35,630 nt of DNA from a virus: positions 1 through 35,630 of the IMG/VR virus record IMGVR_UViG_3300027980_000073; one strand, 5' to 3'. Positions 1 through 34,072 of this stretch are shown here, in pieces. Each line of letters opens with the position of its first letter. The first letter of the stretch is position 1. A model generated the notes under the pieces. The model saw only the letters and a list, made by a program, of their open reading frames with translations, made no database searches and was not told the DNA's origin. Made by a program: the position numbers and the translations under genes.

Positions 1-70
1 CCAATTCATAACCAATTAAATATCCTACACCAAATGCACATGCAATTGTAATAAAAGCTAATACGTTCAT
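1..70 (-). CDS. Small single-TM membrane protein, cut by the window edge
   Basis: A leftward ORF starts at ATG 70 behind a strong GGAGG site and runs off the window after 23 codons. The visible part is hydrophobic and Gly-rich, consistent with one N-terminal transmembrane helix. If the two window ends are joined, the frame stays open for 16 more codons with a charged, Cys-containing tail. It then stops at 35581, overlapping the RHH gene start by 20 bases, which gives a 39-residue protein. Function unknown. Confidence 0.6.
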   Translation of the reverse strand, partial: MNVLAFITIACAFGVGYLIGYEL

Positions 71-79
71 ACTTACCTC

Positions 80-268
80 CTAATCAGCATCAAAATGCAT
101 TTCGAATTCTTTGTCACAACCGTCAACATCATCACAACGAAGATTATAAGTCGTTCCGCAACTATCCTTTTCGATCTCGTCCCATATAGCGCCACAGTAA
201 GGACATTCTACCTCAACACACGTTTGGTAAATTTTTAAATCCCTATATCCTCTGTATATTTTTTTCAT
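80..268 (-). CDS. Small zinc-ribbon-like protein
   Basis: This 62-residue protein has a CPYC knuckle near residue 22 and a second Cys pair (CDD..GC) near residues 45-51, a spacing typical of a zinc ribbon. The C-terminus is acidic. It lies in the leftward operon downstream of the helicase, with GGAGG upstream of the ATG. Zinc ribbons of this size are common in phage early regions and may bind DNA or partner proteins. No specific function can be assigned. Confidence 0.65.
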   Translation of the reverse strand: MKKIYRGYRDLKIYQTCVEVECPYCGAIWDEIEKDSCGTTYNLRCDDVDGCDKEFEMHFDAD

Positions 269-298
269 ACATCTTATCCTCCTATACCTCTACATAGT

Positions 299-505
299 CT
301 AAACTCCGATTGTATAAATAGCTTCCTTCTCATAAACTAAATTGTAATCATTATAAATAGTGTTTAACCCTTCTTCTCCTTGCTCTCTCAGATCAATTAA
401 AAAATCAAGTCTTTCTAACAGTGGCCTTCTTCCATCTGTGTGCCATAAATTATTCACAAACCAATTGTAATCTTTGCCTTTTGCATCTACTATTCTTCTG
501 TGCAT
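299..505 (-). CDS. Hypothetical protein downstream of helicase
   Basis: This ORF encodes 68 residues from ATG 505. That start is preferred over the upstream in-frame ATG 517 because the GGAGG site lies between the two and overlaps the end of the helicase gene. The protein is charged, with aromatic residues near the N-terminus, and has no signal peptide or membrane segment. It is probably translationally coupled to the helicase. I recognise no family. Confidence 0.6.
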   Translation of the reverse strand: MHRRIVDAKGKDYNWFVNNLWHTDGRRPLLERLDFLIDLREQGEEGLNTIYNDYNLVYEKEAIYTIGV

Positions 506-507
506 AT

Positions 508-1749
508 TTACCTCCATGGTTGAATTTCTTTAAACCTTAACTCGTCTTTAATGTGTCTGCATAAGTTATTCCCAACTATACCGTCGCGTTGCTTTGTTAC
601 ATTGACCTCCATTAGTTCAAATTTTTCCAGTGTTTCCTCGCTTATAACTCCACGCTTTACCCACTCTCTTATGTTATCTTCGTTAGGCTTGTGAAGGTAT
701 ACAGCGTTATCTGAATCTTGGTAAGGCGCTTTTGACTCCCTCACATCACGTTCTCCAGTAGGTCTATTGTCACCAGATGAATCGTTTAGCTGTGTTAATA
801 CAACAACAGGTATGTCAAACTCCAAAGCTATTTTTTTAAAGTGTCTACTTAACCATGCCACCTCACGTTCTCTCGAATTGTGCTTACCCTCAGACTCCAT
901 AATTTGTAGGTAGTCAACCACCAGGAGTTGTGCTTTAGTTTCGTACAACTTGCGCCTTATCTCGCTTATTGTTGATATTCTAGCATTAAGATACAAGTCT
1001 CTGCCTTTGAACATGCTGTTAACTCGTCTTATAGCTTTCCACTGTTCATCTGTGAACCGCTTTTCTCTGAAACATGTGTTGTCTATACCTGTTTCTCTTA
1101 CCAAAATACGTTTCCACAATGACTCGCTGCGCATTTCACGGGATATAAAAAGTGTTGTTAATTCCTCTGACCATTTACTAAGATTCTGCATAACAAATAA
1201 TGTTTTACCTACACCTGATCTTGCACCTACTAAGTTAAGTTCTCCTTTTCTCAACGTGCCCATGATACGGTTTAAGAATCCTAAGTCAGAATCAAACTTG
1301 TAATAGTCATACTCTTTTTCTAATGGTTTATGCATGTCTGCCATAAATGAATCTATAACGTGGTCTATGTGGTCTTTATCTATTTCGCTAGACTCTGCCA
1401 TGTCTAAAATATCTTGTGCGACTTGCACAGCGTTTAAATCCTTGTTGGTTATTACCTCGGCTATGTACCGTTTAACCTCTCTGCTTTCAAAGTCAGCTTT
1501 TAACTTAGTAAAGTGCGAATCGTTAACAATAGGGTTTTCTAAATATGCGTCAGTACACGTTGTCATCAACTCGTGGCTTATACCACTGTCTAGTAAGTTA
1601 ACCATGTCTATCGGCTTTCTATCGCCATCTAGCACTTTCATTACTTGGCATAATACAGCTAAGTCACCAGTAAAGTATTGAGGTTTAACTCTTAGTATGT
1701 CTTTATGGTTACATTGCATTATATGACCGAGTATTACCTTCTCTACCAT
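508..1749 (-). CDS. dnaB: Replicative DNA helicase, DnaB-like
   Basis: This 413-residue protein is a RecA-fold hexameric helicase that would unwind DNA at the phage fork. The Walker A motif GARSGVGKT lies at residues 175-183 and Walker B LLVVDY at 275-280, followed by LQIM. The VLTQLN segment near 317-322 matches the DnaB glutamine motif, and a RESK-type segment follows. The N-terminal domain is short, as in many phage DnaB proteins. The start overlaps the end of the replication initiator by 7 bases, so loader/initiator and helicase are coupled, the arrangement common in Gram-positive phages. The product class is well supported; the symbol follows the family. Confidence 0.93.
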   Translation of the reverse strand: MVEKVILGHIMQCNHKDILRVKPQYFTGDLAVLCQVMKVLDGDRKPIDMVNLLDSGISHELMTTCTDAYLENPIVNDSHFTKLKADFESREVKRYIAEVITNKDLNAVQVAQDILDMAESSEIDKDHIDHVIDSFMADMHKPLEKEYDYYKFDSDLGFLNRIMGTLRKGELNLVGARSGVGKTLFVMQNLSKWSEELTTLFISREMRSESLWKRILVRETGIDNTCFREKRFTDEQWKAIRRVNSMFKGRDLYLNARISTISEIRRKLYETKAQLLVVDYLQIMESEGKHNSREREVAWLSRHFKKIALEFDIPVVVLTQLNDSSGDNRPTGERDVRESKAPYQDSDNAVYLHKPNEDNIREWVKRGVISEETLEKFELMEVNVTKQRDGIVGNNLCRHIKDELRFKEIQPWR

Positions 1750-2498
1750 CCTTGTTCCTTCTTCCTCATTATTTCAGATATACGATCAACTGGTTTGTCT
1801 TGCTTATTGTCGTAATTGCCCTCTAGTATCTTTATAAAGTTATTAGGGTTAAATACCCAATCGTACTTGAACCAATTACCAGCACCCTTTACTAAAAAGT
1901 CAGATTGTTCAGCTTTGTCTAATACACTAATTACTTTTTCAAAACCGTAGTCTGTAATACGCGCATTAATTTCCTTCTTTCGCTTATCTGTCATTTTAGC
2001 AGCTTGTGGTAAACTCTTGCAGTTATCAGAGTAGTATTTTGCGACTTCTGCCACATAGTCTTTTTCTTGTTTATCATTGTTATCATTGTTGTTAGTATCC
2101 ATCGAGTGTTTCTTTAGTGTTTCTTTAGCGTTACCCTTGTCAACTTTTTCTTGATAGGATACCCAGTTTGCAATGGTTACGACTGTCCCATTACTGTTAC
2201 CCTCAACTGTTATCATTTGGTTACTTTCCATAAATTCTAGTATTGCTTTTATTGTTTTGGGATTCGGCTCCTTCCATTTCAACCCTTCATAATAACCTAC
2301 GCCTTTAGCGATTTGTCTATATGATGTTGCACGTTGTCCGGGCTGTATTGTTGTAAAACCTCCGTTTCTATTTGGTATCTTTACAGGTTTATGATTGACC
2401 GAATACTTTAGCCATTGCCATACCCTGTGATACATAGGTGGCATTAACCATATACTCGATTCTAATTCTTTTCTATGATCGGCAATCCACCCTGACAT
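1743..2498 (-). CDS. Replication initiator / replisome organizer, DnaD-like
   Basis: This 251-residue protein has an N-terminal winged-helix-type region (about 1-115, with SIWLMPP, IAKG and a helical segment ending in a VTIANWVSYQ strand). A low-complexity Asn/Lys/Asp linker follows at about 130-145. The C-terminal region (about 148-235) resembles phage DnaD/DnaB_2 domains that contact the helicase, with the typical WFKYDWVFNPNNFIKILEG ending. It should bind the origin and recruit the downstream helicase, with which it overlaps. The linker-coding DNA carries tandem repeats that may be the origin. The start is ATG 2498 with GAGGTG upstream. No gene symbol is given because phage homologues are named inconsistently. 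Confidence 0.82.
   Translation of the reverse strand: MSGWIADHRKELESSIWLMPPMYHRVWQWLKYSVNHKPVKIPNRNGGFTTIQPGQRATSYRQIAKGVGYYEGLKWKEPNPKTIKAILEFMESNQMITVEGNSNGTVVTIANWVSYQEKVDKGNAKETLKKHSMDTNNNDNNDKQEKDYVAEVAKYYSDNCKSLPQAAKMTDKRKKEINARITDYGFEKVISVLDKAEQSDFLVKGAGNWFKYDWVFNPNNFIKILEGNYDNKQDKPVDRISEIMRKKEQGW
2072..2127. repeat. Tandem direct repeats inside the initiator gene; candidate origin iterons
   Basis: Two short tandem repeats sit in the linker-coding part of the initiator gene. TATCATTGT occurs at 2072-2080 and 2081-2089. GTGTTTCTTTA occurs at 2106-2116 and 2117-2127. The 11-base unit is not a multiple of three, so it is not explained by a protein repeat, and its period is about one helical turn. 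Lambdoid and Gram-positive phages often place the origin inside the initiator gene. Origin function is inference. Confidence 0.4.
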
Positions 2499-3411: not shown

Positions 3412-3595
3412 CGTACTGGAATATCACGAGCAAATGTGTGAACGTTATTTAAACGACCTAGAAACGCTATACAACGCCCATACAGATAAGAACAACTTAA
3501 GCATGACAATTAGTATGATTAACAAAGCAAAGAGCCGTTACGAGCAACACAAGAGGTTTTGTGAGATAATTAGAGGTGAGATAGATGGACGATAA
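3404..3595 (+). CDS. Hypothetical helical protein upstream of the annealing protein
   Basis: This 63-residue ORF overlaps the preceding ORF by 8 bases and the Erf gene by 11 bases, consistent with a tightly packed recombination operon. The product is helical and charged, with no signal or membrane segment. I recognise no family. The usable ribosome site is weak, so translation probably depends on coupling. Confidence 0.6.
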   Translation: MISVLEYHEQMCERYLNDLETLYNAHTDKNNLSMTISMINKAKSRYEQHKRFCEIIRGEIDGR

Positions 3596-4226
3596 ACTAG
3601 CACTAAAGATTTTTAATGTAATGGAAGAAACAAAAGCGATTGAAAAAGATCAAACAGTCGGCAAAGGAAATAATCAGTATGAAGCTGTCAGCGAGTCGTC
3701 TGTACTAAATGAAATCAAACCGTTATTCAGAAAGCATAAATTAATAATGTTTCCTCATAAAACAAAAGCGGTAGAAATACAACACTCTTACCCAGACCCT
3801 TACGACAAGAACAAAACTAAACTTAAATCACTCACGCAATTAGTAATGACATTCTTACTTGTAGATGCAGAAACAGGCGAGTCGGTAGAAGTAGAGGTTT
3901 GTGGTAATGGTTATGACGCATTAGACAAAGGCGCTGGCAAAGCTTCAACGTATGCCTATAAGATAGCATTGCAAAAGACATTCATGTTGTTTAGTGGCGA
4001 AGATACAGACAATCACCACACACAAGATAGCTTAAATTCTCAAAGTGACACAAAAGAAGAACGCAAGGTTACTACTCAAATGCTTATTGATATGGCTGCA
4101 AAAGTAGGAGTAGACGAAGCTAAATTATGCAAATCTGGTAACGTTAGCGAAGTTAAATATATATCGCAAGAAAAGAAGCAACAGTGGTACGATGCGTATA
4201 AAGCTAAAGTTGATAAGGAGGGTTAA
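3585..4226 (+). CDS. erf: Erf-family single-strand DNA annealing protein
   Basis: This 213-residue protein matches the ERF family of single-strand annealing recombinases. The N-terminal part contains KGNNQYEAVSESSVL near 27-41 and LFRKHKLIM near 47-55. The family signature YDALDKGAGKASTYAYK lies at 110-126, followed by KTFML. It anneals complementary single strands during recombination-dependent replication and genome circularisation. Neighbours fit: HNH-like protein, SSB and RusA resolvase lie in the same operon. The C-terminal 70 residues are a variable charged tail. The stop overlaps the next start (TAATG). Confidence 0.9.
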   Translation: MDDKLALKIFNVMEETKAIEKDQTVGKGNNQYEAVSESSVLNEIKPLFRKHKLIMFPHKTKAVEIQHSYPDPYDKNKTKLKSLTQLVMTFLLVDAETGESVEVEVCGNGYDALDKGAGKASTYAYKIALQKTFMLFSGEDTDNHHTQDSLNSQSDTKEERKVTTQMLIDMAAKVGVDEAKLCKSGNVSEVKYISQEKKQQWYDAYKAKVDKEG

Positions 4227-6059: not shown

Positions 6060-6548
6060 ATGAATCAGGTGGCAATTATCGGGAGACTTACGAAGGACCC
6101 TGAACTAAGATATATCTCAGGTAGTGGAACGGCAACGTGCCAATTCACTTTAGCTGTAGACAAACAACTATCCAAGCAGAAGAAACAGGAGTTTGAACAA
6201 GCTGGTAAGCCTACAGCCGACTTTATTCGTATTGTTGTGTGGGGTAAGCAAGCTGAGAACTGCGCTAATTACTTAGAAAAAGGTAGAAAGGTGGCAATTA
6301 ACGGTAGTATTAACGTATCGTCTTACAAGTCGAATACAGGTGAAACTAGATACAGCACAGATGTAGTAGCCAGTAACGTAGAGTTTATTGACTGGGGCGG
6401 GAAGAAGCCACAAGGAGCAACAGCGCAGAAGCCGTCAGGTAATTTCCAAGCTTTTGACGATGATTTTGCCAATGATTTTAAGGCAATTGAGGATGATTTT
6501 GCCAATGATTTTAAGGCAATTGAGGATGATGATGATATTCCGTTCTAA
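6060..6548 (+). CDS. ssb: Single-stranded DNA-binding protein
   Basis: This 162-residue protein has a canonical SSB OB-fold at about 1-110: NQVAIIGRLTKDPELRY, then FTLAVDK, FIRIVVWGKQAENCANYL and a KVAINGSI strand. A linker and the acidic tip DDDDIPF follow; this tip recruits partner proteins. It protects single strands at the phage fork and works with Erf and the helicase. An 11-residue unit before the tip is duplicated through a 33-bp tandem DNA repeat. The ribosome site AAAGGAG lies in the end of the upstream gene. Confidence 0.95.
   Translation: MNQVAIIGRLTKDPELRYISGSGTATCQFTLAVDKQLSKQKKQEFEQAGKPTADFIRIVVWGKQAENCANYLEKGRKVAINGSINVSSYKSNTGETRYSTDVVASNVEFIDWGGKKPQGATAQKPSGNFQAFDDDFANDFKAIEDDFANDFKAIEDDDDIPF
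6459..6524 (+). repeat. 33-bp perfect tandem duplication in ssb
   Basis: Bases 6459-6491 and 6492-6524 are identical. Each codes for DDFANDFKAIE in the acidic linker before the SSB tip. The identity at DNA level indicates a recent slippage or duplication event that lengthened the tail by 11 residues without breaking the frame. Confidence 0.9.
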
Positions 6549-7890: not shown

Positions 7891-8011
7891 ATTGAAACAG
7901 TATGACGAACTAGAAAAGCATATTGATCACGAACGTAAACACGAGGACTTGCAAAACAGGATTGACCTTGCCGAAAGAGTATGGGGTATTAAACATGAAA
8001 ACATTACTTAG
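7877..8011 (+). CDS. Small coiled-coil hypothetical protein
   Basis: This 44-residue ORF has an ideal TTAGGAGG site before ATG 7877. The product is a highly charged helix rich in His, Glu and Lys (ELEKHIDHERKHEDL). It overlaps the methyltransferase start by 17 bases, so it may couple translation of that gene. No family recognised. Confidence 0.55.
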   Translation: MFEDKLKQYDELEKHIDHERKHEDLQNRIDLAERVWGIKHENIT

Positions 8012-8768
8012 GTATCCTGGTGGTAAAGCTAAAGCGGTGAAAAAAATAATAGAGTATTTCCCAAAAGATTTAACAGAAATGAATTCGGTGTTTTTCGGTG
8101 GCGGCGCAATAGAATTACACATGATGTCGGAAGGTGTTAAAGTTAATGGTTACGACAATTTTAGTCAGCTTGTTACTTTTTGGGATATGGTTAGCAATGA
8201 AACGGCTAAACAATGCGTGATTGATGAAATCAAAAAATATAGAGTAGGCACTATCGATAAAAAGACATTTAAAAAATTACAAACCGATTTAATATATAAC
8301 GACCTTACTAATATTGAAGTAGCATCGAAATTTTTTATAGTAAATAGATGTTCTTTTTCTGGCACTACGTTGTCGGGTGGTATGTCACCCAATACACCTA
8401 GATACACTGAATCAAGCGTTAATAAATTAAAAGCATTTGATGGTTCTTTATTAGACATAACGAAAGCAGATTTCGAAGATTCTTTAACTTTTTTTATAGG
8501 TAAAAATGACTTTAAATATTGCGATCCACCATATCTCATAGAGTCTAACTTGTATGGCATTAAAGGCAAAAGTCACAAGGAATTTGACCATGACTTGTTT
8601 GCCAATTGCATAAAAAAACATAGTAATTGGATAATTTCTTATAATGATTGTGATTGGGTGAGAGAATCTTACAAAGAGTACGAGATAAAAGAGTTGAAGT
8701 TTCAATATGGAACGAGCAAGAGTAAAACCGAGTTATTAATACTAAACATTAGGAGGAAACATGATTGA
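7995..8768 (+). CDS. D12-class DNA N6-adenine methyltransferase (Dam-like)
   Basis: I chose ATG 7995 (257 residues) because the family motif LLRYPGGKAK then falls at residues 4-13, its usual place; the longer frame from 7923 adds residues foreign to the family. The AdoMet-binding FFGGGAIEL is at 33-41, NRCSFSGT at 117-124, the catalytic DPPY at 177-180, and a TELLILN strand near the C-terminus. All core motifs are intact, so it should be active, probably protecting phage DNA from host restriction. Target specificity (often GATC in this class) cannot be read from sequence. No cognate restriction gene is present. The ribosome site is weak, suggesting coupling. Confidence 0.92.
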   Translation: MKTLLRYPGGKAKAVKKIIEYFPKDLTEMNSVFFGGGAIELHMMSEGVKVNGYDNFSQLVTFWDMVSNETAKQCVIDEIKKYRVGTIDKKTFKKLQTDLIYNDLTNIEVASKFFIVNRCSFSGTTLSGGMSPNTPRYTESSVNKLKAFDGSLLDITKADFEDSLTFFIGKNDFKYCDPPYLIESNLYGIKGKSHKEFDHDLFANCIKKHSNWIISYNDCDWVRESYKEYEIKELKFQYGTSKSKTELLILNIRRKHD

Positions 8769-10191: not shown

Positions 10192-10252
10192 TGTTATTGT
10201 ATTAATACAGAAATCGACTTGGCGGAAGAGTCTGTATGTAGATTATACCAAT

Positions 10253-10277
10253 AAAAAAGCGCCCTGTCAAAGAGCGC
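10253..10277 (-). terminator. Rho-independent terminator of the leftward late genes
   Basis: On the minus strand GCGCTCT (10277-10271) pairs with AGGGCGC (10265-10259) around a 5-base loop with one G-T pair, followed by six T. It lies 7 bases after the holin stop and ends the whole leftward late transcript. Confidence 0.9.
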
Positions 10278-10283
10278 AATATT

Positions 10284-10484
10284 CTATTTTTTCTCTTCCT
10301 TATTAAAAAAGAACGCCATTACCATTGTAGCTAACGGTGCGTATACCTCAATAGGTACAAATTGATTAACAAACGCATATGTTAACGCTGTTATGACCAT
10401 GAGTGAAATAATTGATTTTATTTTAAACAAATTAGCCACATTTAAAACTAATGTTTCTAAAGCTTTAAGCAATACATCTTTCAT
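10284..10484 (-). CDS. Putative holin
   Basis: I chose ATG 10484 (66 residues): it overlaps the amidase stop (TAATG) and is preceded by GGAGGAAAT; an in-frame GTG at 10505 lacks that. The product has an amphipathic N-terminus (KDVLLKALETLVLNVANLFK) and two hydrophobic stretches (about 25-41 and 46-60), then a charged NKEEKK end. This topology, its last position in the operon and its place beside the amidase and XhlA-like gene fit a class II holin. No specific family motif is visible. Confidence 0.7.
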   Translation of the reverse strand: MKDVLLKALETLVLNVANLFKIKSIISLMVITALTYAFVNQFVPIEVYAPLATMVMAFFFNKEEKK

Positions 10485-11023
10485 TATTTCCTCCTTAGAT
10501 ACCACACAATGTCAGCAACTATTACATCAGCTACTCTTTGTTGGTATTCTTCTGTTTTCATCATGTTACGATCTGTTGAGTTGGTAAAAAATCCATTCTC
10601 AGTTAAAATACTAGGGTGTTTTACATCTTCTATAATTGCCAAGTCTGTCCACGTGCCGTCCTCATATAAGTGTATACCGTTGCCATGCAAGTCGAAACCG
10701 TTATCTTGCAAATGTTTAACATGTTGTTTGGCTAGTTCTGTTTGACTCCATACAAAGCAACAACACCCGTCTACAGACTCACTACCGCTTGCGTTACCAT
10801 GTATTGAGTAAACCAAATCGTATTCATTAGAGTTATATACCCACACACGTTCGTTAAGGTCTATTTCTTCGCTATGTGGTGATTGTAGGCAGTCATAATC
10901 TACACCTAGCTTATCTAACTTATCCATAACTTTAATAGCTACTTCAGAGTTAAACCAATGTTCCGAGAAATCCCCATATCCCTTGCCTGGGGTGTCAGTA
11001 CCATGACCTATATCAATAGCCAC
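10484..11023 (-). CDS. N-acetylmuramoyl-L-alanine amidase (Amidase_3), endolysin catalytic part
   Basis: The 179-residue frame from GTG 11023 contains the full Amidase_3 zinc and catalytic set: H7 in DIGHG, E27 in NSEVA, H75 in SIHGNAS and E142 in LTENGFF. It cleaves the amide bond between the stem peptide and muramic acid for lysis. No ribosome site precedes GTG 11023, and the frame is open upstream to the slippery heptamer GGGAAAG at the end of the S8/SLH gene. I therefore infer that the amidase is mainly made as a -1 frameshift fusion of 478 residues. Independent initiation at GTG cannot be excluded. Confidence 0.9.
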   Translation of the reverse strand: MAIDIGHGTDTPGKGYGDFSEHWFNSEVAIKVMDKLDKLGVDYDCLQSPHSEEIDLNERVWVYNSNEYDLVYSIHGNASGSESVDGCCCFVWSQTELAKQHVKHLQDNGFDLHGNGIHLYEDGTWTDLAIIEDVKHPSILTENGFFTNSTDRNMMKTEEYQQRVADVIVADIVWYLRRK

Positions 11024-11050
11024 AGTACCGACTAGGGGTGCTACTTTCCC
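10994..11050 (-). other. Probable programmed -1 ribosomal frameshift site
   Basis: At 11050-11044 the minus strand reads G GGA AAG directly before the TAG stop (11043-11041) of the S8/SLH gene. GGGAAAG fits X-XXY-YYZ and is the heptamer used in lambda gpG-T. After an 11-base spacer, GTCGGTAC (11032-11025) pairs with GTACTGAC (11001-10994). The 23-base interior pairs further (TGGC-TAT with ATA-G-GTCA around TGAT), giving a long, nearly continuous hairpin. A -1 slip joins the S8/SLH frame exactly to the amidase frame with seven linking codons before GTG 11023. Confidence 0.75.
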
Positions 11051-11919
11051 AAGTCTCTATCTCTTAATACAGCATACCTAGCAAGGGTTAACGGTTCGTT
11101 AGGGTGAATATTACCGTTTTCATCACCTTTTAAAATTCCATCGTTAACCATTCTTTGCAATGAATCTTGCGCCCACTCTGGAGCAGTGTGTAAATCTTTA
11201 GGAATCATGTATAACTCTCCTTCTCTATATTCGTAATAGCCTTTACCTGTTTTTAAATCAAAACCAAGTTCGCCAATGTCTGTTACATACTTATCTACCG
11301 TTGCTGTGATTTCCTTGCGTGTAATGTCACGACCAAACTTTCTAAAGAAGTCACTTGCCATATTCCAAACCATCGCTCCGTGCTGATCCACTGAGAACGA
11401 AGTTCCCTCTTTTACCCCTGTGACTTCTGTTGAGACTTTCCAATCGCCACCATCCCAGTACTCAATAGGTATGCCTGTAATACCAGAGTAAGTAACGGCG
11501 CCAAATCCCCAAGAACTATAGTCTTTATGTCGCATAGTAGGGGTAATTGCTGCTATTGCTGTCCAATATGGTTTTTTAGCTAGTGCTGTTTCACCTTCTG
11601 AGTCTTCATTACCAGCCGATGTGATCATATATATTTCACTTGAGTAGTCCTTTAACCAGAAGCTACCTCTTAAATCGCCAACGCTTGCACTTATAATGAG
11701 TACTTCTTGATGATGTTTAGATAAGTATTCTTTAAGGTGCATATATGGCACTGTGACAATGCGTATACGGCTTTTCTCCCAATGTCTTATAGTTCCTATG
11801 CTGTAGTTTAAATGCTTGCTAGACTTCAATCTGAGTCCGTTCTCAACGTCTATGTCATATGGTTTCTCAGCGTCATAACCTTCGCCATATTCTACCTTTA
11901 GGTATATGTGTCGCTTCAC
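11041..11919 (-). CDS. Degenerate S8 subtilase-like protein with SLH-like wall-binding segment
   Basis: This 292-residue protein has the C-terminal half of a subtilase fold: SAGN at 101-104 (oxyanion-hole Asn region), GTSFS at 172-176 (the Ser motif), then helices and DIGELGFDLKTGKG at 214-226, which matches the end of S8 domains. The Asp and His motifs are not recognisable in the shortened N-terminus, so proteolysis is doubtful. Residues 245-290 match an SLH repeat (PEWAQDSLQRMVNDGILKGD..G..HPN), usually a wall-polysaccharide binder. GTG 11919 has AAGGAGG five bases away and overlaps the HhH stop. The 3' end carries the frameshift heptamer that would append the amidase. Confidence 0.75.
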   Translation of the reverse strand: MKRHIYLKVEYGEGYDAEKPYDIDVENGLRLKSSKHLNYSIGTIRHWEKSRIRIVTVPYMHLKEYLSKHHQEVLIISASVGDLRGSFWLKDYSSEIYMITSAGNEDSEGETALAKKPYWTAIAAITPTMRHKDYSSWGFGAVTYSGITGIPIEYWDGGDWKVSTEVTGVKEGTSFSVDQHGAMVWNMASDFFRKFGRDITRKEITATVDKYVTDIGELGFDLKTGKGYYEYREGELYMIPKDLHTAPEWAQDSLQRMVNDGILKGDENGNIHPNEPLTLARYAVLRDRDLGK

Positions 11920-12173
11920 CTAAACCTCCTTTTCAATAACTCAATTGTTTTATCTCCTATCCCATTAACTAAAACTAATTCAGCCATTTCGGCGCCTGGG
12001 TTAGATTCTAAATAATCAAGTATCTTTGTCGCTTTTATATCACCTATCTCGTGTATACTTATTAATTCAAAATAATCAGCTTCATGTATGCTAGGTTTAT
12101 ATACCAAACTAATTATAATAAGTAATAGAGACAGGGATATAGCAGTTATAATTACAATATCCCTTCTCTTCAT
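11916..12173 (-). CDS. Membrane-anchored helix-hairpin-helix (ComEA-like) protein
   Basis: I chose ATG 12173 (85 residues) because AGGTGGG lies just upstream; the GTG at 12182 overlaps that site. The N-terminus has KRR and one transmembrane helix (about 6-26). The rest matches the tandem HhH of ComEA: ELISIHEIGDIKATKILDYL, then MAELVLVNGIGDKTIELLKR. In ComEA this domain binds double-stranded DNA outside the membrane during uptake. Its position between XhlA and the lysin genes is unexpected. It may bind DNA at the envelope during ejection or lysis, or act in superinfection exclusion (inference). Confidence 0.75.
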   Translation of the reverse strand: MKRRDIVIITAISLSLLLIIISLVYKPSIHEADYFELISIHEIGDIKATKILDYLESNPGAEMAELVLVNGIGDKTIELLKRRFR

Positions 12174-12174
12174 A

Positions 12175-12405
12175 TTACCCACCTACTACTAAGCCAAATA
12201 CAGTTAGTCCTATTGATACTATGATACCAACTAACAAACCATTGTTTTTTTGACCGTTAGAGTCAAGCCTAGCAACGATTTTATTAATGCCATCTTTCAA
12301 CTCTTGTATGTCTTCTTTCATCGTGGACGTTCTTTCCTCTAGTATCGACACTCGCTTATCTAGCTTATGCACCTCTGGACAATTACTGCAATCTTTTTCT
12401 GACAT
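12175..12405 (-). CDS. xhlA: XhlA-like holin-associated protein
   Basis: This 76-residue protein has a CSNCPE start, a coiled coil (about 12-48, HKLDKRVSILEERTSTMKED) and a C-terminal transmembrane helix (about 55-74). That is the layout of the XhlA/hemolysin family encoded beside holin and amidase in Bacillus phages and prophages. It likely assists the holin at the membrane during lysis. It overlaps the upstream TM peptide by 23 bases. Confidence 0.75.
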   Translation of the reverse strand: MSEKDCSNCPEVHKLDKRVSILEERTSTMKEDIQELKDGINKIVARLDSNGQKNNGLLVGIIVSIGLTVFGLVVGG

Positions 12406-12496
12406 GGAATTTACCCCACTTGTATAGTTTTTCTAGCGCTGTGCATATTACTAAGATTGAAAACACTGTCGTTATTATCCATACAGCATTAATCAT
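12383..12496 (-). CDS. Small single-TM peptide at the start of the lysis cassette
   Basis: This 37-residue ORF has GGGAGG before ATG 12496, which overlaps the stop of the internal virion protein (ATGA). One hydrophobic helix spans about 3-21, followed by a basic tail (KLYKWGKFHVRKR). It overlaps the XhlA-like gene by 23 bases in another frame. It could be a holin partner or antiholin, but nothing in the sequence proves it. Confidence 0.6.
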   Translation of the reverse strand: MINAVWIITTVFSILVICTALEKLYKWGKFHVRKRLQ

Positions 12497-15400
12497 TGAA
12501 ACCTCCCTTGTAATAACTCTTGTTTAGCTCGTTCGCCAGCTCTTTTCTTCAAGTCATTTAACACTTTAGAAAGTTGAATAGCTTTAGCTTCATTTTCTAC
12601 TTGTTTGCCTTTTAAAAACTCAGAGAATAATTCATTAACCACTTGACCTTCTGTTCTCTGCCATTGTTGTTTTTCGTCTTGTGTTAGTTCTAATTTATTA
12701 CCTCTAAATGTAATTACATTAGGCGGTTTCCTATCTGGGAATACTGACGTTTCACCACTTAACTCAGAAATCTTTCTAAGTTGTTCTCCAAACTCTGTTG
12801 GTTTAAATGTTGTTTGTGTCGCTGGGCTTAATAAGTTAGCAATAGGTCCCTCGGCCCTTTTCATTTCTTGACCTAATGGATCAATTTTAGCTGGTAGCTG
12901 TTGAGAAAGTCCGGGTATGTTAGCTTGGATTTTACCACCAACTTCTCCAAGTTGTTCTAAAACAGGTACTGTGGCTCCACCTCTTGGGTCCCTTACTACT
13001 GGGTCAAGAGTTTGCGCTGTTTGTCTAACTATAGAAGGTACAAAGCCCGGTAAAGCTTCTTGTACTGGAATAGCTGCCACTGAGTACGGCGTTGAATCTG
13101 ACTTCATCATTTCATAAAACATTTTGTTGATAGTGTACATCGAAGGCAAATCAATTGCTTGCTCAAATGTATTAACCGTCAAGTCTGATAATGCATCAGC
13201 ATTCATAGGAAGACCTTTTTCGGCTAATTGAGCGCCTACAGCTATAGGAGTAGTAACAGGCTGTAGCCAGTTATAGTTAACTATTTCATCCCCGGATTGT
13301 GCTGTTGTGTCCTCACCTCTAATCATTCGACCTAACGCGTCCATGTTTACTTTATAGTTACCTAGTCCTTCAGCGCGATCAAACGCCCCTTGGTCAAAGT
13401 CTCTTGATGTTGTTTCTCCACTTATCACACCTTTATTATACAACACTGCACCTAAAGAAAGCAAACCTGTGCCTGTTGTGGCTCTACCGAATGTCATAGC
13501 TATCTGTCTTTGCAATTCTGGTGTAAGCTCTTTTCCTGTCAAGGAACCCATGTCTTTCATAAACTTTAAATATCCAAGTGGTGAATATTCAAACCCACGA
13601 GTCATAATGTTACCCGGCACTCTAGTGTACTTTAGAATTAAATCACCTAAACCGAAGTCTTCTGTAAACACAGTTCCGGGCAACTTAGCAGTAGCTTCAT
13701 TAAGGAACTTTTTACCTCTTGAAAGAACGTTAGCTAAGTGTGAATCATTTTGGAACGTTGCAAACTTTGCTTCGTCTGCTGCCGTTTTAATTTCTTGTTC
13801 TGTCGCTTCTTGCATAACTTTATTAAAGTCCCAATCCTTAACCTGTTTTCCTAACCTAGCTTGTAATTGGTTGTATAAGCTATGAGCTTGGCTGTAACCT
13901 TTGAAAAATTCATCAGGTGTTTGTAATGACCACGCCAATACTTTCTCACCAGCTTTACCAACTTTAGATTTAAAAGAAGAACCAGCTAGTAAATCATATT
14001 TACCTTGTGGTACTCTATTGGCTCCGGCTTTGATTTCTAAGAATGAACGTCTCCCTTGTTCCCAACCGTTAGCAAGTTGCTTTAACGTATTTGGTGTAGT
14101 TGCTGCTACAGATTTATTCTTACTAAACGCACTAAGTAATAAGTCTGCAGGTTGTGCTGCTACTTGTGATACTTGCTCTGCTAATATTGACGCCGTATTA
14201 CCAACTATATTCCTTGAAAAAGTCCTAGCATTAAGTAAATGTGACATAGCTTGTACAGAAGAAAGCTTTTTAGCTTTAAGAATAGGTATTTTGTCAATAA
14301 CTTTCCTCATTGCTATGTTGGTGTTAAGTGCTTTTAATTCATCCATACTATAAAGACCTAACAAATCATCAGGTTTAGTACGCTTCCCAATCTGAGCAGC
14401 TACAAATTGGCCTAGTTCCTCCGGTGACATATCTTGCACAGTTCTTAAATTATCACCAATGTCAGCAATTAATTTTCTATCAAAGTCAACATTTGCTTCT
14501 TTCAAGGTTTTAGTGGCCCATTTTTGTACGCCTTCTGGTGTAGTCAAGGCCCATACTGAAGCAGATTGCACATCTTGGCCAGCTCTACGATACTTTTCTG
14601 CCATTTTTTCTATAATATTGACAGCATCATCATAACGGCCTTGGTCTTCTAGCTGTTTAATAACCCTTTTACCCATGAATGGCTCTATTGCAGAACTAAA
14701 TTGATCCCCTTCTTTAAGTAAAGTTACCGAGTTTTCAAAGTTATCAGTTAAAACTCTTTGTGCCACTAAATCTCTAGCTTCATTTGACGTTGTATCAAGT
14801 TCTAGTCTTTTTAACTCTTTCTTTAACTCAGGACTTGTCATATCAGAAGTTTTAACTGTTTCTACAAAACTAGCATCACTCACGCCAACTTTAGGAGTTT
14901 CTAACACTGAGTTAACAGCTTTAGAGTTAGTTGTAACACCTGGTGCTTCTTCTACAATACTATTTAACTGTTGTTTGGTCTGTTCTTGGCCTATTCGTTC
15001 TGTGAATGGTTGTCTTGCTCCTGGTTCTACAGGTCTAACTGGTTCTTGAGCTAAACTAACACGTTCTGACAATGGTTGTCTAGGACCTAAATCTGGCGTG
15101 TCTGGTCTAGCCACAAAATCAGGTGTAACAGCTTCTTTGGTTACAGGTGTTTCTACACTTTGTAGCTTAGTTCTAAACTCTTGTAGTAGTGCGTTGTCCC
15201 CATTATCCACAGCTTTAATAACTTCTTGTGGATTAATATCTGCTTGTTTTAGTGCTTGCTGTACTTCTTCGCCTTGGAATGCTCTTTTGAAGTCACCTGT
15301 TGCTCCACCAATAGCAGCGTTTAGTAATACGTCAATAGAACGGTTAACTAAGAAGTTGGTCGCTTGTTCGCCTATTGTTTGGTCTTCTTGAATACCTCTA

Positions 15401-16185
15401 ATAACCTCTTGTGGAGTTTGCAGTACAGTATCAACGAATAAATCTGCAGCTTGTTGTCCAGCTATTTGTCTACCAGCTGATGCACTAGCACCACCTAGTA
15501 TTCTTTGACCGATTTGAGTACCACGAAGTATAGGGGCTACACCTGTATACAGACCAGTTTGAAGCGCCGCACTACCCAATAATTCACCAGTCCTAAATTC
15601 TCTTGATTGTTCCGCTTCAGTTCTAGCGGCTCGAGCTTGTTCTCCCCTAGGTTGACCTATAGTACCAAGAGACAACGCGCTGAATATACCAGTTTCTCTT
15701 GCTTGTGCAATTTCTCTATTCGCTGCTTGCTCGCCCATTAGTCTTTTAGCTTCTTCAAAGTCACCCCTTTCCGATGCTTGCTTTACTAGTGGTTGTAGCC
15801 TTTCAATGTTTTCTCTAGCTTTCTTTACTCGATCAGACTCTACTTCTTTCCGTTCTTGTCGTTGTTCTTTACGTTGTAAAAGCAAACGTGATTCTGTTAA
15901 ACCATCATCTTCAGGCATAGTTAAAGGCTTACGCTCTGGTACTTGTGGTAAAGCTCTAAAACTTAACGCGTCTATTTCGCTTCTGCGCTCTTGTTCTCTT
16001 TGTTGTGTTGTTCTGTCTACAGCTCTGTCTATACTTGGACCTAAACCAAAATCCATTTCTCTACGACCAAGACCTAGTGGATCTTGTACACTAGGTCTTG
16101 TAGATGGTTGTCGTAGTCTTTGAGATAATGGCTGTCTACCTGTATTTGATTGTAGTCGTTGTGATAATGGTATTCTTGCCATCAT
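12493..16185 (-). CDS. Large internal virion (DNA ejection) protein, LPD38-like
   Basis: This 1230-residue, Gln/Arg-rich protein lies at the end of the structural region, where podoviruses encode internal or ejection proteins. A short motif recurs: IPLSQRL at 5-11, RQPLSQRL at 17-24, RQPLSERV at 369-376 and RQPFTERI at 391-398. Ala/Gly-rich, weakly hydrophobic segments lie at about 200-300. RTFSRNIVGN at 654-663 resembles the LPD38 region of large polyvalent phage proteins (family recalled, moderate certainty). Two ATGs (16185 and 16182) follow GGAGG; the second has better spacing. It probably forms or fills the channel through the cell envelope. Confidence 0.7.
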   Translation of the reverse strand: MMARIPLSQRLQSNTGRQPLSQRLRQPSTRPSVQDPLGLGRREMDFGLGPSIDRAVDRTTQQREQERRSEIDALSFRALPQVPERKPLTMPEDDGLTESRLLLQRKEQRQERKEVESDRVKKARENIERLQPLVKQASERGDFEEAKRLMGEQAANREIAQARETGIFSALSLGTIGQPRGEQARAARTEAEQSREFRTGELLGSAALQTGLYTGVAPILRGTQIGQRILGGASASAGRQIAGQQAADLFVDTVLQTPQEVIRGIQEDQTIGEQATNFLVNRSIDVLLNAAIGGATGDFKRAFQGEEVQQALKQADINPQEVIKAVDNGDNALLQEFRTKLQSVETPVTKEAVTPDFVARPDTPDLGPRQPLSERVSLAQEPVRPVEPGARQPFTERIGQEQTKQQLNSIVEEAPGVTTNSKAVNSVLETPKVGVSDASFVETVKTSDMTSPELKKELKRLELDTTSNEARDLVAQRVLTDNFENSVTLLKEGDQFSSAIEPFMGKRVIKQLEDQGRYDDAVNIIEKMAEKYRRAGQDVQSASVWALTTPEGVQKWATKTLKEANVDFDRKLIADIGDNLRTVQDMSPEELGQFVAAQIGKRTKPDDLLGLYSMDELKALNTNIAMRKVIDKIPILKAKKLSSVQAMSHLLNARTFSRNIVGNTASILAEQVSQVAAQPADLLLSAFSKNKSVAATTPNTLKQLANGWEQGRRSFLEIKAGANRVPQGKYDLLAGSSFKSKVGKAGEKVLAWSLQTPDEFFKGYSQAHSLYNQLQARLGKQVKDWDFNKVMQEATEQEIKTAADEAKFATFQNDSHLANVLSRGKKFLNEATAKLPGTVFTEDFGLGDLILKYTRVPGNIMTRGFEYSPLGYLKFMKDMGSLTGKELTPELQRQIAMTFGRATTGTGLLSLGAVLYNKGVISGETTSRDFDQGAFDRAEGLGNYKVNMDALGRMIRGEDTTAQSGDEIVNYNWLQPVTTPIAVGAQLAEKGLPMNADALSDLTVNTFEQAIDLPSMYTINKMFYEMMKSDSTPYSVAAIPVQEALPGFVPSIVRQTAQTLDPVVRDPRGGATVPVLEQLGEVGGKIQANIPGLSQQLPAKIDPLGQEMKRAEGPIANLLSPATQTTFKPTEFGEQLRKISELSGETSVFPDRKPPNVITFRGNKLELTQDEKQQWQRTEGQVVNELFSEFLKGKQVENEAKAIQLSKVLNDLKKRAGERAKQELLQGRFQ

Positions 16186-33710: not shown

Positions 33711-33894
33711 TGTCTTCCTCACTCTCTTGTATAGCTTGTAATTTGTTTTCTAAGTCTCTTATTCTTTTCAAATAAGTTTCATTCTTTGCGGCGCACAGCT
33801 TCCAATGTTTAACAGCTTCTTCAAATTGGGATTGCAACTTTAATATTATTCCCTCTTTGACTTGGATGTCTTTGATTAGTTCCTCTCTAGTCAT
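33703..33894 (-). CDS. Small coiled-coil protein of the MTREE junction family
   Basis: This 63-residue ORF starts at ATG 33894 overlapping the upstream TGA. It is a coiled coil from end to end (IQVKEGIILKLQSQFEEAV, LKRIRDLENKLQAIQ). Its start MTREEL and its end AIQESEED are shared with the neighbouring gene because the junction DNA is repeated. It overlaps the next gene by 8 bases. Function unknown. Confidence 0.6.
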   Translation of the reverse strand: MTREELIKDIQVKEGIILKLQSQFEEAVKHWKLCAAKNETYLKRIRDLENKLQAIQESEEDNE

Positions 33895-34072
33895 AATCTA
33901 TCTTCCTCACTCTCTTGTATAGCTTTGTCTAAATACTCTTCTACAAATTTGCTTCTTAAAGCTTGCATGTTAAATATTTCGCACGTTTTCATTCTTTTGG
34001 GGCTATTCTTCAAACCTTTAGTTAGTTTATCCAAATATTTTAGTTCCTCTCTAGTCATAATCTATCTTCCTC
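33876..34072. repeat. Direct repeats at successive gene junctions
   Basis: A perfect 33-bp repeat occurs at 33876-33908 and 34040-34072, each covering a gene end, the overlapping ATGA and the next gene start (encoding EEDRL stop / MTREEL). A second perfect 25-bp repeat, coding AIQESEED, occurs at 33901-33925 and again at 33713-33737, outside this span. The units flank small unrelated genes, suggesting duplication or recombination at gene borders. Confidence 0.85.
33891..34058 (-). CDS. Small basic protein of the MTREE junction family
   Basis: This 55-residue ORF has GAGGAAGATAG upstream of ATG 34058 and overlaps both neighbours by 4 bases. Between the shared ends (MTREEL and AIQESEED) its middle is unique and basic (KLTKGLKNSPKRMKTCEIFNMQ). 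Function unknown. Confidence 0.6.
   Translation of the reverse strand: MTREELKYLDKLTKGLKNSPKRMKTCEIFNMQALRSKFVEEYLDKAIQESEEDRL

Follow-up and report, generated by a model that had tools for sequence, protein, structure and literature searches.

The endolysin of a podovirus-like phage is probably expressed by −1 programmed ribosomal frameshifting, with an amidase frame joined to the end of an upstream gene that carries a single SLH domain. The phage is known from metagenome sequence, and the window, that is, the whole stretch of DNA analysed, covers 35,630 nt (IMGVR_UViG_3300027980_000073, positions 1 to 35,630). Its late operon lies on the minus strand and includes recognisable genes for the terminase, a P22-like portal and the major head protein, of which the portal is about 26% identical to that of Bacillus megaterium Page-type phages. 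At the 3' end of the operon the order is an HHH-motif gene, a gene for a 292-residue protein, the amidase frame, a 66-residue gene and a terminator-like hairpin (Table 1). The 66-residue gene overlaps the amidase stop, and no family match was found for its product, a candidate holin.

Table 1. Coordinates of the features at and around the frame junction.
Feature	Position	Strand	Details
HHH-motif gene	11916-12182	-	listed start GTG 12182
0-frame gene, 292 residues, subtilase (S8)-like region plus single SLH	11041..11919	-	GTG start, strong SD AAGGAGG
S8 (subtilase)-like region, residues 71-229	11233..11709	-	hhalign profile similarity
Candidate internal start ATG 11208-11206, SD AAGGAG 11222-11217, 8-nt spacer	11206..11222	-	0 frame, just before SLH
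SLH domain, residues 245-278	11086..11187	-	Pfam PF00395 E=1.3e-5
-1 frame open region, Amidase_3	10484..11056	-	Pfam PF01520 E=2.5e-25; PHROG 435 endolysin E=2.5e-30
Slippery heptamer G_GGA_AAG	11044..11050	-	0-frame stop TAG 11043-11041 directly after
Branched RNA structure	10972..11038	-	closed by CCCC 11038-11035 / GGGG 10975-10972
15-bp stem, 9-nt loop, holding GTG 11023	10994..11032	-	-19.3 kcal/mol alone
66-residue gene with membrane segment, candidate holin	10284..10484	-	called from sequence and position only; strong SD
Intrinsic-terminator-like hairpin with T tail closing the late operon	10249..10277	-

Two further features of this operon end were observed. An SD is almost absent at the listed start of the HHH-motif gene (−1.5 kcal/mol; 12175-12182, minus strand), and ATG 12173, which lies nine bases 3' of it and is preceded by GGTGGG, is the likelier start. 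A perfect consensus promoter (TTGACA, 17 nt, TGnTATAAT, 12/12) at 10242-10277 on the minus strand overlaps the terminator-like hairpin of the lysis cassette.

At the junction the 0 frame reads GAC TTG GGA AAG TAG. A TAG closes the −1 frame as far as 11057; beyond it the frame runs AGA CTT GGG AAA GTA GCA (CCC...) into the amidase. The two frames overlap at 11056-11041 (15–16 nt), and GGGAAAG is the sole slippery site inside this overlap and stands in phase. Phase-correct X_XXY_YYZ sites occur at 24 of 6384 late-gene codon positions, and GGGAAAG at exactly one of them, which favours frameshifting. Plain GGGAAAG has three occurrences in the window, matching chance expectation, so it is the phase and place of the heptamer that carry the weight. 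With about five phase-correct positions in the overlap, the estimated probability of a chance occurrence is about 2% for a heptamer of this type and lies below 0.1% for GGGAAAG itself. No SD-like stimulator was found upstream of the heptamer, which counts against frameshifting, and Rfam returned no family. Transcriptional slippage was dropped as an explanation, since runs of three bases are too short for it. G_GGA_AAG has been described as highly shift-prone in E. coli (PMC5009743).

The amidase itself is intact. Its match to PF01520 covers positions 1-170 of 174, and the conserved H, E, H and E are retained in the alignment with relatives. The frame contains no ATG, and GTG 11023 is its sole start codon, with an SD energy of only −2.6 kcal/mol versus about −6 to −15 kcal/mol at nearly all other starts in the window. 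This GTG is also buried within the 15-bp stem. An SD supports the start of at least 71 of 80 Amidase_3 relatives (23–34% identity), and most of the others have an ATG. An intact amidase without such a start, and with its GTG in a stem, therefore argues for frameshifting. The protein has no binding domain of its own beyond the catalytic domain, which points the same way. These results bear out the earlier note on the heptamer (11050-11044, before TAG), on an amidase frame open back to the junction and on the missing ATG and ribosome site; they also confirm its fusion length of 478 residues (292+186).

The RNA downstream of the heptamer is unusually stable. The outer 4-bp CCCC/GGGG helix of the branched structure begins 5 nt from the heptamer, and the main 15-bp stem 11 nt from it. 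Stimulatory structures usually begin 5–8 nt downstream (PMC4066793), and the distance of the main stem counts against frameshifting. The folding energy of the 80-mer 11043-10964 is −30.6 kcal/mol; of the 7110 80-mers taken from both strands, none is more stable except one that overlaps it. Dinucleotide shuffles of the stretch after the heptamer gave z=−2.7. When the 27 residues were recoded synonymously with the phage's own codons, the mean was −17.0 and the observed stability was reached in 2/5000 recodings; when the seven codons before the GTG were kept, it was reached in 37/5000. A structure that starts 5 nt away and is more stable than nearly all 80-mers and 4998/5000 recodings favours frameshifting. 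The earlier note had the stem in the right place (11032-10994) but described it as 8 bp with a long interior hairpin; with 15 bp and a 9-nt loop it is stronger than that.

The main competitor is translational coupling, in which ribosomes that have terminated at TAG 11043 start again 18 nt further on, at GTG 11023, and make a separate 179-residue amidase, the heptamer being fortuitous. This is a real though lesser possibility. The Amidase_3 domain begins exactly at this GTG, and another phage amidase (L056) has an ATG at the equivalent spot (MKIDLGHG), showing that so short an N-terminus can occur; both points weigh against frameshifting. A stand-alone amidase would also be viable, as 23/77 relatives consist of little more than the catalytic domain. 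Coupling is made less attractive by the weak SD energy of the GTG, when nearly all other genes in the window have an SD. Moreover, the stem that encloses the GTG is stronger than the protein sequence requires, and for reinitiation the termination event 18 nt upstream would need to open it.

A recent indel could instead have split an in-frame ancestral fusion, or the amidase could otherwise have been disabled in one lineage, leaving a remnant that decays or is leakily rescued. The arrangement was indeed found in one lineage only, and the searches gave little to compare it with. Searching 50,697 phage records, plasmid records, IMG/VR and GTDB genomes turned up neither a diverged 292-residue protein nor a diverged junction; the junction searches (tblastn against phages and plasmids, IMG/VR, GTDB) returned near-identical contigs or general SLH, CHAP and Amidase_3 proteins only. 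Conservation, usually the principal test for programmed frameshifting, thus lacks comparison material, as does covariation, and has not failed. The frameshift arrangement was seen in 0/80 of the Amidase_3 relatives. Pattern scans for GGGAAAG or AAAAAAG just 5' of the amidase I-D-x-G-H-G motif (56 and 61 stretches) found it only in the window's own lineage, most other hits being SD-like sequences or unrelated genes. The missing diverged junction homologue and the missing second case among these amidases count against frameshifting. Nevertheless, decay is unlikely: the full amidase domain and its active-site residues are intact, the end of the upstream protein looks like a natural SLH terminus, the junction holds the window's most stable fold, and the proteins scanned included no other recognisable intact lysin. 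Still less likely is a sequencing or assembly error, which is conceivable for a metagenome-derived record. There is no long homopolymer at the junction, and contig IMGVR_UViG_3300005589_000094 has the same junction. Over the 6736 nt around the junction that contig matches the window exactly, and 3 SNPs separate the two in another 17,750 nt, indicating that it is a separate assembly. The identical junction in this second contig also favours frameshifting. Taken as a whole, the frameshift interpretation is likely, and the sequence signals for it are strong.

The upstream gene provides the domain to which the amidase would be attached. Its GTG 11919 has an SD energy of −13.4 kcal/mol. Residues 71-229 matched a profile of 21 clostridial S8 sequences with a probability of 90.7 (P=1.3e-6, hhalign), versus 1.9 for the best of 30 shuffled versions; Pfam HMMER did not detect an S8 domain in the 292-residue protein. 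The oxyanion AGN (N104) and GTS (S174) motifs are present. The catalytic Asp was not found in this region, so protease activity is uncertain, and the assignment of the catalytic His is a guess. AlphaFold without an alignment reached a pLDDT of only 36 for the 292-residue protein. The SLH match is firmer, with 25.5 bits versus a Pfam cut-off of 20.8. The S8 and SLH calls made previously are thus upheld. The conserved SLH motifs are Trp, GIIxG and TRAE (PMC12285257), of which EWAQ and GILKG are present here and TLAR stands in place of the TRAE ligand motif. This degenerate ligand motif was counted against the SLH-amidase reading.

The end of the 292-residue protein does not look like an accidental break. 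Phage lysins that end in one SLH domain include a Moorella amidase, a Parageobacillus protein and a Paenibacillus amidase, and the C-terminal LRDRDLGK of the 292-residue protein aligns with LDRLGLLK of SLH-terminated lysins. TAG 11043 therefore looks like a natural terminus, and an interrupted single gene is disfavoured because the 0-frame stop sits where such lysins normally end.

A second decision may be made upstream of the SLH domain. With an SD energy of −10.0 kcal/mol, ATG 11208 shares second place among the 261 internal start codons that are in frame. From this candidate start, ribosomes that do not slip would make a free SLH domain of 55 residues, and those that slip an SLH-amidase of 241 residues. 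The earlier note missed this start and took the 478- and 292-residue proteins as the product pair. Its −1 frameshift fusion keeps strong support in cis, but the 241-residue SLH-amidase with the free 55-residue SLH is at least as likely as that pair.

In the proposed mechanism, ribosomes would start at GTG 11919 or ATG 11208 and reach G_GGA_AAG. The branched RNA 5 nt downstream, perhaps together with a slow stop codon after the heptamer, would cause a fraction of them to slip back by one base and enter the amidase frame, producing fusions of SLH and amidase that are 478 or 241 residues long. The remaining ribosomes, presumably most of them, would terminate at TAG, with the 292-residue S8-SLH protein or the free 55-residue SLH domain as their product. 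One SLH domain could then serve as the wall anchor for both the protease-like and the amidase modules. Around the fusion, free SLH subunits may make up the rest of an SLH trimer, comparable to the free binding domains in Lys170 and CTP1L. That a minority SLH-amidase would assemble with free SLH is proposed from the shift-prone heptamer, the spacing of the structure, the trimer of LysBT1 and the free domains of Lys170 and CTP1L. A fuller version is rather doubtful, namely that the proportions of four products (292, 478, 55 and 241 residues) forming mixed SLH trimers depend on two recoding decisions, with the SLH common to a subtilase-like protease and a frameshifted amidase and the protease perhaps clearing the host S-layer.

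Several known systems resemble parts of this arrangement. Two-polypeptide endolysins from one gene include Lys170, LysIME-EF1, CTP1L, CD27L, 2638A and Ms6, and in the Lys170 and CTP1L type free binding domains from an internal start complete the enzyme (PMC9430671, PMC4777826). The candidate internal start here would likewise give a free binding domain beside the full enzyme, and it lies between a protease-like and an amidase module, much as two catalytic domains flank the start in 2638A-like cases. In the known two-polypeptide endolysins, however, both forms share one frame and the short one is the C-terminal part, whereas here the binding domain lies N-terminal to the amidase, whose attachment would depend on the frameshift. 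LysBT1, a Brevibacillus prophage endolysin, similarly pairs an amidase with a single SLH binding domain, and its SLH trimerises (PMC12285257). It differs in having one frame, the amidase first, a conserved TRAE and an amidase fold similar to XlyA, PlyL and T7 lysozyme. The nearest Amidase_3 in named phages is the Anoxybacillus phage A403 endolysin (MG969427; 33–36% identity), which differs in having its own ATG start and a C-terminal extension, with no SLH seen in its sequence.

Concerning the shift itself, G_GGA_AAG is listed as the shift site of the tailed archaeal virus HCTV-5 (PMC5009743). The case is like the tail-assembly frameshifts of lambda G/GT and HCTV-5 (PMC5009743) in its heptamer, its −1 direction and its predicted C-terminally extended minor product, and unlike them in gene function and in the strong downstream structure and the stop right after the heptamer. 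For lysins known to contain a frameshift, PRFect's authors cite a study of a lysin specified by two overlapping frames (via PMC10885494, PMC4777826). As far as these citations describe it, that lysin likewise uses two overlapping frames. The earlier view that a two-form lysin would be unusual is consequently withdrawn: endolysins made as two polypeptides are common, and there is already a report of a frameshifted lysin. With such precedents the arrangement adds a variant, not a new category. What appears to be new, judging from the sequence, is an N-terminal binding domain, an amidase attached by frameshifting and possibly an internal start. If this is true, ribosomal slippage and not gene fusion sets the share of lytic enzyme with a wall anchor, and the same module also makes free anchor. 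Lysis would join the functions for which tailed phages are known to use −1 frameshifting, with a concrete and testable site, and annotation pipelines would miscall such amidases as stand-alone genes.

Other observations were made on the window and on the sequences compared with it. Contig IMGVR_UViG_3300005920_000031 bridges both ends of the window (1-2446 and 35630) via about 1.44 kb that is missing from it (L005 2447-3885). The genome is therefore circular or circularly permuted, with a length of about 37.1 kb. Extra 33-bp exact BLAST matches of sister contigs suggest short direct repeats in the early region, at 33876-33908 and 34040-34072. The 1230-residue late protein at 12493-16185 on the minus strand had no match in Pfam, PHROGs or phage tblastn. 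A D12-class adenine-specific DNA methyltransferase is encoded at 7923-8768 on the plus strand, and near it are an ERF annealing protein (3585-4226), an SSB (6060-6548) and DnaB/DnaD-like genes (508-2498). Finally, the gene that directly follows the holin of Monoglobales phage CHVD 5762 (L065 2677-3465) is unannotated; it encodes a CHAP protein with an SLH-like tail, probably an unrecognised endolysin.
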